IMG/VR virus record: IMGVR_UViG_3300008451_000397
Span: 1 to 37,139 of that record
Length of the DNA stretch: 37,139 nucleotides
Source of the DNA: a virus
Strand: one strand, 5' to 3'
Below the pieces are notes generated by a model, which saw only the letters and a program-made list of their open reading frames with translations, was not told where the DNA came from and did no database searches. Each line of letters begins with the position of its first letter. The stretch's first letter is position 1. The position numbers and the translations under genes were made by a program. Positions 32,712 to 34,583 of this stretch are shown in pieces.

Positions 32712-33148
32712 AAACTATTGATATTGCGGCGGCACTTGGCAGACCTTTCGAGGGCTGCTATCTGCGGCCTTATTTATGTCCAGCTGGTGTTGCGACTATC
32801 GGAATTGGCTGCACTTTCTACCCTGACGGTCGCGCTGTCACGCTACATGATGCGCCGATTACTCGAGAGTATGCTCATTACATGCACATATGGATGATCA
32901 AAAACATCTACATGCCGAAAGTGATCAAGCTATGCCCAAAGATCGACACGCCAGAACGTGCGGCGGCGTTGATTGACTTCGCGTTTAATCTTGGCGCGGG
33001 TCGCTTAAAATCCAGCACGTTACGCAAGCGGGTAAATGCGGGCGATTGGGCAAGCGTACCTGCTGAACTGCGCAAGTGGAACAAGGGCGGGGGGCGTGTG
33101 TTGCGCGGTCTGACGTTGAGGCGCGAGGCAGAGATTAAATTGATTTAA
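32708..33148 (+). CDS. GH24 endolysin (lysozyme)
   Basis: This enzyme cuts peptidoglycan glycan strands at lysis. The 146 residues contain FEGCYLRPYLCPAGVATIGI: E15, C24 and T30 sit in the E-x8-D/C-x5-T spacing of T4-like lysozymes, with Cys in place of Asp. The later AALIDFAFNLGAGRLKSSTL and GGGRVLRGLTLRREAEI are also typical. There is no signal peptide or signal anchor, so release depends on the holin. The start is GTG, overlapping the holin stop. The stop overlaps the integrase stop on the other strand by 4 bp. Confidence 0.9.
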   Translation: MKTIDIAAALGRPFEGCYLRPYLCPAGVATIGIGCTFYPDGRAVTLHDAPITREYAHYMHIWMIKNIYMPKVIKLCPKIDTPERAAALIDFAFNLGAGRLKSSTLRKRVNAGDWASVPAELRKWNKGGGRVLRGLTLRREAEIKLI

Positions 33149-34152
33149 CGGTGCAGGTCTTTCGCTCTCACTTGCGTATATCTGGCAAGCATTTTCCAAT
33201 CTCGATGACCGGACAAAAGCGCCACTTGTTCAATTGAATATTTCTGTTCAAAAAATCGGCTCACTCCTTCGTGGCGCAAGTCGTGGAAACGCAAATCAAC
33301 AATGCCAAGCTCACGACATGCGCGAGGGAATAGGCTTGATGGTGTACCTTCGGCAATTGGAAATATTCTTTCGTCTGTTCGCTTTTGGCGCATAGCAATA
33401 GAAAAGGCATTTCCAAGCAGCGGCACTTCCTGATCGTTTCCGTCTTTCTCGGTCGGGTGCTTTCGGTTTCTGATGATAACGGTCTTTTCCGTTTCATTCA
33501 AATCTGCCCATTTGAGATTAACTATCTCGCCCAGGCGCATTGCAGTGTCAACTGCAAACAGAATTAAATCCTCCATTGGCACTCTCTGGCGCGTCTTGCA
33601 AGTGAAGTGTAGGCAAATATCATCTATCTCTTTTTGAGTCGGCCTGCGCTCTCTGTGCTTGCTCTTAGCTGATAATCCCATATATTTTAGGCTTGCCGTG
33701 GCTTCTTTGCAGATAGTCACATCGACAGGCAAGCGCCAAAGCTCTTTGGCTGTTTTGATGACCGCGCCCAAGTAAGCAAGATCGACCGCTATTGTTGCGC
33801 CTGTCACAGTCTTGGCCCTATCCTTTGCCCACTTGATCAATAAATCAGAATTCAAGTCTGCCAGCGTTACATCGCCATGCGTTACTTTCCACGTTTCCAA
33901 TACTGCGATTTTCGTGCGCCTAAACTCCTTTATACCGCCGATTTCTTCTTGATAGCGCTCGATCAATTGCTTAACTGTAATTCCAGTCAATCCACGGGCA
34001 TCTTTAAATTGCAGCGCGTCCATTTGAGATTCAATCTCACGCGCCCATACTTGCGCCCGTCCTTTGGTCGTAAATGATTTACTGATAGACTTATGACCTT
34101 TGCGCCGTATATCCGCAACCCAAGACAATCCCCTTTGAACAATCCGCGCCAT
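33145..34152 (-). CDS. int: Tyrosine-family phage integrase
   Basis: This recombinase joins the phage attachment site to the bacterial one. With the start at 34152 it has 335 residues. The N-terminal arm-binding region is about 1-50, the core-binding domain 55-160, the catalytic domain 165-335. The catalytic set is visible: R206 (AMRLGE), H290-x2-R293 (HDLRH), H316 (GHRDW) and Y325 (ARYTQ). The gene lies beside the dusA-like attachment region and arm-type repeats, so it belongs to the group of integrases that target dusA. It is convergent with the lysozyme gene. Confidence 0.94.
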   Translation of the reverse strand: MARIVQRGLSWVADIRRKGHKSISKSFTTKGRAQVWAREIESQMDALQFKDARGLTGITVKQLIERYQEEIGGIKEFRRTKIAVLETWKVTHGDVTLADLNSDLLIKWAKDRAKTVTGATIAVDLAYLGAVIKTAKELWRLPVDVTICKEATASLKYMGLSAKSKHRERRPTQKEIDDICLHFTCKTRQRVPMEDLILFAVDTAMRLGEIVNLKWADLNETEKTVIIRNRKHPTEKDGNDQEVPLLGNAFSIAMRQKRTDERIFPIAEGTPSSLFPRACRELGIVDLRFHDLRHEGVSRFFEQKYSIEQVALLSGHRDWKMLARYTQVRAKDLHR

Positions 34153-34155
34153 AAA

Positions 34156-34176
34156 AATCCGTAGTAAATCCGTAAT
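34156..34176. repeat. Integrase arm-type sites, left pair
   Basis: AATCCGTAGT (34156-34165) and AATCCGTAAT (34167-34176), period 11 bp. The same decamer occurs as a pair on the other side of the att core. It lies immediately upstream of the int start. Confidence 0.55.
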
Positions 34177-34233
34177 GAGCGCATAAGATAGCATAAGTTT
34201 GATTAAGTTTTAATAAGATTTGGAGTTTTACAA

Positions 34234-34314
34234 ATGACCGTTCTCATAGGGGAAAGCCCAAGAAAGCCCAAGCGTACTATCTGCACTGCGCCCATGATGG
34301 ACTGGACGGAATAA
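34234..34314 (+). other. dusA: attP region with replacement start of dusA
   Basis: A 26-codon frame begins at 34234 with a GGAG ribosome-binding site 8 bp upstream. It ends TICTAPMMDWTE before a TAA. APMMDWT(D/E) is the conserved N-terminal motif of tRNA-dihydrouridine synthase A. The phage therefore carries the start of dusA, and the attachment core probably lies in 34285-34310 (ACTGCGCCCATGATGGACTG and following). After integration the host dusA would continue from this phage-encoded start. The upstream MTVLIGESPRKPK part is phage-specific. A 10-bp direct repeat (GAAAGCCCAA, 34252-34271) lies within it. Confidence 0.75.
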
Positions 34315-34342
34315 GGCTAATTTTGTCTATGAAGCCTTATTC
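34309..34342. repeat. 9-bp inverted repeat next to the att core
   Basis: GAATAAGGC (34309-34317) and GCCTTATTC (34334-34342) form a perfect inverted repeat with a 16-nt loop. It begins at the end of the dusA motif. It may be a recombination protein site or an RNA hairpin in the xis-int transcript. Confidence 0.55.
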
Positions 34343-34344
34343 GT

Positions 34345-34365
34345 AATCCGTAATTAATCCGTAAT
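34345..34365. repeat. Integrase arm-type sites, right pair
   Basis: AATCCGTAAT at 34345-34354 and 34356-34365, period 11 bp, matching the left pair in sequence, orientation and spacing. The last bases overlap the stop of the excisionase-like gene. Confidence 0.55.
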
Positions 34366-34583
34366 TAAGTGGCGGTTTTTCTGGCCTCGTCCATGTAAAT
34401 TGCCACATCACGAACGTCGGCAAGTAGCCTTGCACCCGACTTGCCGCGCATAGGAACTGGAAAGGTTCCCTTGGAGCGCATCACATGGGCCGTGGCGACT
34501 TCTACGCCGACAATGCCGCATACTTCTGCTAGTGTTAGCATTGGCTTATCGTACTTTGCTAAAAGTAAAAATTCAGCGTTCAT
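34365..34583 (-). CDS. Excisionase candidate / PrtN-like small HTH protein
   Basis: The product is 72 residues: MNAEFLLLAKYDKPMLTLAE, then a helix-turn-helix-like VCGIVGVEVATAHVMRSKGT, FPVPMRGKSG and a terminal helix VRDVAIYMDEA. It resembles the pyocin-activator (PrtN) group and small phage excisionases that choose direction of recombination. Its location next to attP and int favours an excisionase. The start at 34583 has GGAGGGGAAA upstream; the longer frame to 34640 is not needed. Confidence 0.7.
   Translation of the reverse strand: MNAEFLLLAKYDKPMLTLAEVCGIVGVEVATAHVMRSKGTFPVPMRGKSGARLLADVRDVAIYMDEARKTAT

Follow-up and report, generated by a model that had tools for sequence, protein, structure and literature searches.

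The attachment site of a P22-like temperate phage carries an in-frame replacement start for host dusA

That an integrating element can replace the 5' end of dusA with its own sequence is known from Farrugia et al. 2015 (PMC4482086) for islands and prophages with dusA-associated integrases (DAI), and in 2021 lacZ fusions showed that IMEVchUSA3 of Vibrio cholerae gives dusA a new promoter and N-terminus (PMC8409611). RdfN, a protein of the PrtN type, was shown to be the excisionase of that element (PMC8409611). Excision, integration and element-driven expression of dusA are established for elements other than the one studied here (PMC4482086, PMC8409611). The virus record IMGVR_UViG_3300008451_000397, the 37,139 bp of which we call the window, has in common with the DAI elements (PMC4482086) the target in the 5' part of dusA, the predicted replacement of the 5' end and a short conserved att core, but differs from them in being the apparently excised genome of a P22-like phage, probably from Oxalobacteraceae, that has arm repeats of its own. 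With IMEVchUSA3 it appears to share a new dusA start and N-terminus at attR, and the RdfN/PrtN-type excisionase of that element is weakly similar to the product of a phage gene; IMEVchUSA3 is, however, a mobilizable island and not a phage, and expression from the new promoter has been measured in IMEVchUSA3 only. Three isolated phages, Burkholderia BcepMigl, Klebsiella YMC16/01/N133 and Pseudoalteromonas C5a, resemble the phage studied here in carrying an in-frame DusA N-terminus beside a related integrase, although their integrases are only 36–39% identical to its own and their classification assigns them elsewhere (Lessievirus, Casjensviridae and Peduoviridae).

The record lacks terminal repeats, and the virus is a P22-like temperate phage. 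Its portal and major head protein match phrog_156 and phrog_283, with best hits annotated as a P22-like portal and P22 coat protein, and the P22-like podovirus trait (P22-type portal and coat protein) is thereby present as judged from the virion genes only; other phage genes encode an AntA/AntB antirepressor, an ERF recombinase, a Gp157-like protein and a phage lysozyme. The host probably belongs to Oxalobacteraceae (Undibacterium group). Because the phage attachment site, attP, lies intact inside the contig, we infer that the record stems from excised or packaged phage DNA rather than from an integrated prophage. The tyrosine integrase gene int (33145–34152, minus strand; PF00589, E = 1e-19; phrog_1 integrase) is predicted to target dusA. 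Its listed open reading frame, beginning at 34194, is overlong, and homologues and tblastn set the start codon at 34150–34152, giving a protein that begins MARIVQRG. The integrase is 77–79% identical to those adjoining dusA in lysogens of Undibacterium macrobrachii and of an Oxalobacteraceae metagenome-assembled genome (MAG), and 52–79% identical to those adjoining dusA in Oxalobacteraceae. Judged from the PF00589 match and these identities, it is a tyrosine recombinase of the dusA-associated group.

Divergently from int, an open reading frame of 26 codons at 34234–34314 (plus strand) encodes MTVLIGESPRKPKRTICTAPMMDWTE, starting with ATG at 34234–34236 and closed by a phage-supplied TAA at 34312–34314. 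A Shine–Dalgarno GGAG (34222–34225) precedes the ATG by 8 nt. The preliminary description, made from the letters of this DNA, had pointed out the GGAG, the ATG and a frame that leads into the start of DusA, and this reading was borne out. APMMDWT is the conserved start of DusA, and by our own arithmetic the probability of a 21-nt stretch encoding it by chance is about 128/4^21 per position, which is negligible. In the phage-borne head, the unusual residues ICT stand in place of the ISV or LSV of native DusA, and among the relatives with an ATG 18 codons ahead of the core, the strong Shine–Dalgarno sequence is confined to this phage. Within the head, the 10-bp GAAAGCCCAA occurs twice in tandem at 34252–34271, and the length of the head is the same as in the relatives.

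The function of the site became evident from the lysogens of relatives. In U. macrobrachii (G002), two copies of the core lie 36.4 kb apart. The left half of attL resembles the native Undibacterium dusA (41/67 identical bases) and its right half the phage attP (46/63), and at attR the left half resembles the phage attP (43/67) and the right half the native dusA (53/64); the other, nonhomologous comparisons of the half-junctions aligned only a few bases and were uninformative. The element has the native, GTG-started head of 13 codons at attL and a phage-type, ATG-started head of 18 codons at attR. In the MAG (G001), attL and attR are exactly alike only over CCCATGATGGATTGGTC, and in U. macrobrachii over a slightly longer stretch. 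As the junctions agree exactly only there, strand exchange is placed at the equivalent of 34291–34307 (plus strand), the core CCCATGATGGACTGGAC of the phage attP, a crossover region of 17 bp encoding PMMDWS/T. The core proposed earlier, 34285–34310, was slightly too wide. When the empty sites are rebuilt from the host flanks, dusA again starts with GTG and has a head of 13 codons, VNSPIIPSRRISVAPMMDWSDRHCR and VKLPLIPSRRISIAPMMDWSDRHCR (the V at the front being the GTG start), equal in length to the dusA head of the locus L072, whose genome has no close relative of the integrase. With 13 codons and GTG in the rebuilt heads and 18 codons and ATG in the phage, integration swaps one for the other. 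The host head stranded at attL has a TACAAT-like element upstream and runs into a phage-supplied TAA; such a TAA follows the core also in the related locus L030 and, at 34312, in the window.

An exact match of 23 bp to the core was found inside dusA in 3 of the 195 Oxalobacteraceae genomes, and the lack of any such host match had been named beforehand as an outcome that would speak against the proposal. With this match and the phage-derived start carried by the lysogens of relatives, the suggestion that the phage brings a replacement start for dusA held up: the att core lies in the 5' coding region of dusA, as seen from the host genes and from the attL and attR of relatives, and the element supplies an in-frame replacement of the 5' coding sequence, as seen at these junctions and in a survey of 20 sites. 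None of the 399 genomes sampled from the order contained a lysogen of exactly this phage; they gave only the U. macrobrachii relative and short matches to the core. Close DNA relatives of the att region were also sought in the phage collection, which returned only short integrase matches, and an exact scan of IMG/VR for the attP pattern gave no match.

The target range of the integrase lineage is wider than dusA. Beyond the three isolated phages named above, a Vibrio tectivirus-like element has an in-frame DusA head where its record ends, and four other phages with related integrases showed no DusA head within the stretch read, so dusA is not the target of every member of the lineage. At six loci (L044, L045, L046, L047, L048 and L050), more distant integrases from the same bacterial family, 36–41% identical to that of the window, adjoin a tRNA gene (CGCCGTAGTTCAATGGATAGAACGAGTGCCTCCTAAGCG..., apparently tRNA-Arg CCT) and not dusA, with repeats of the TATCACT or TGTAGCA type beside int, a switch of target within one integrase lineage. 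In one genome (G119), about 42 kb separates two related integrases (L052 and L038), and the DusA head at the outer one runs into TELSMSS and a stop and not into dusA; apparently, one dusA has taken up two elements in tandem. For the isolated Shewanella phage vB_SspM_M16-3 (L092), the annotation describes the related integrase as interrupted by an amber point mutation.

A 21-nt direct repeat flanks the core with one copy on each side, AATCCGTAGTAAATCCGTAAT at 34156–34176 and AATCCGTAATTAATCCGTAAT at 34345–34365 (both plus strand, 90% identical); the copies fit arm-type binding sites, and the one in the P arm is a putative site for the integrase or a recombination directionality factor (RDF). 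An equivalent of the P'-arm copy is present at attL of the two Undibacterium-group lysogens and in L030. Relatives have the same arm repeat at both ends, int is accompanied by other tandem repeats in more distant ones, and in Oxalobacter paraformigenes a different tandem repeat is seen at both ends of the element. Across attP from int, a gene of 72 aa (34365–34583, minus strand) matches the excisionase family phrog_1300 (E = 1.3e-6), and a weak match to PF11112 PyocinActivator (E = 0.013) falls below the cut-off; we consider the gene product a putative RdfN/PrtN-like excisionase and a candidate RDF of the phage. A perfect 10-bp inverted repeat, GAATAAGGCT/AGCCTTATTC, surrounds the stop codon (34309–34342). 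Since the relatives lack this inverted repeat, the idea of a conserved hairpin downstream of the core was dropped.

Similarity to dusA could in principle be explained by the recombination core only, the in-frame dusA being unselected because the gene is dispensable and the upstream reading frame incidental. Consistent with this, laboratory strains can do without dusA (cited in PMC4482086), and one Undibacterium lysogen (genome G594, locus L106) has a 1-nt deletion by which the phage-supplied ATG falls out of frame, with no in-frame ATG, GTG or TTG remaining; the frameshift fits with the dispensability of dusA, which may be silent there, or may be a sequencing error. Similarly, the test of codon-level selection on the N-terminal codons was weak, being nonsignificant over all pairs of the seven relatives, with 295 of 2,000 column shuffles giving values as low. 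Against this, an in-frame ATG, GTG or TTG start ahead of the core is kept in 19 of the 20 sites beside related integrases, and the distance from the ATG to the core is 54 nt in 7/7 close relatives, without indels. Moreover, the differences between close pairs are mostly synonymous (e.g., pS 0.46 and pN 0.13 for the window and L030), several pairs having pN/pS of about 0.2–0.4, and the frame reaches far upstream of the crossover segment. Taken together, we regard an explanation by the core only as improbable.

The remaining explanations fared worse. The reading frame of 26 codons could encode a micropeptide that has a function in the free phage, as the good start signals (GGAG at a spacing of 8 nt) and the conserved stop just past the core might suggest; dusA needs the same start signals once the phage is integrated, however, the stop is equally explained by the closing off of the stranded host head, and the relatives do not share the strong ribosome-binding site, which makes such a peptide very improbable. 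That the segment is a dusA fragment gained by imprecise excision or transduction and unused for integration is scarcely credible: it does resemble the start of a host gene, but it is flanked by repeats, adjoins int and has an excisionase-like gene across the site, and relatives have integrated at exactly the same point, their mapped attL and attR in essence refuting the idea.

We are thus nearly certain that the site is attP, that the integrase recombines it into the PMMDWT codons of host dusA, and that the phage start and 18 codons join dusA in frame. The absence of a lysogen of this phage from the 399 genomes, the unusual ICT in its head, the nonsignificant codon test and the frameshifted L106 are the points that speak against it. 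Under this mechanism, attP would recombine with the conserved codons, and the phage start codon and the 18 codons through ICT, left of the crossover, would join host dusA at the int-side junction. As the phage start joins the gene in frame there, the lysogen would make DusA with a phage-derived N-terminus; the host promoter and start would be stranded at the other junction and ended by the phage TAA. The junctions, the swapped start and the repeats on both sides were observed in relatives, and the phage itself probably integrates by the same swap, judging from its sequence. By analogy with the published elements, the phage side would then be expected to drive the expression of dusA.

A leader is common to int and the dusA head. 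The distance between the divergent starts, given as about 80 bp in the preliminary description, is 81 bp (34153–34233) after the int start was placed by homologues and tblastn. In the alignment of seven relatives, the leader contains a conserved AT-rich block with the approximate sequence TAGCATAAGTTTGATTAAGTTTAAATAAGATT, and its conservation looks higher than that of the coding head. This conserved block holds a tentative IHF-like site, AATCAAACTTATG (34192–34204, minus strand), with one mismatch and about 0.4 such sites expected by chance in the region. A search of the 81 bp for consensus sigma-70 promoters found no pair matching at least 9 of 12 positions on either strand. The block may serve as a promoter, as a bending site or as both, and the co-regulation of int and dusA, also raised earlier, is possible but unsupported. 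It is conceivable, though unlikely, that the integrase or the excisionase, bound at the P-arm repeat (34156–34176) and at the conserved AT-rich block, controls both int and the phage-started dusA, and that the prophage state would thereby set the dihydrouridylation of host tRNAs.

The principle of start swapping is already published, and the phage is a clear further example with an unusually complete anatomy and no departure from the known kind. It is absent from the published dusA elements compared here, and the natural lysogens of its relatives show both junctions. Insertion into dusA in this manner means a swapped gene start and not the loss of the gene. The arm-like sites, the core, the start codon and the excisionase-like gene all lie within one stretch of 430 bp, and so compact an attP would make it easier to test how strongly lysogeny alters the expression of DusA.
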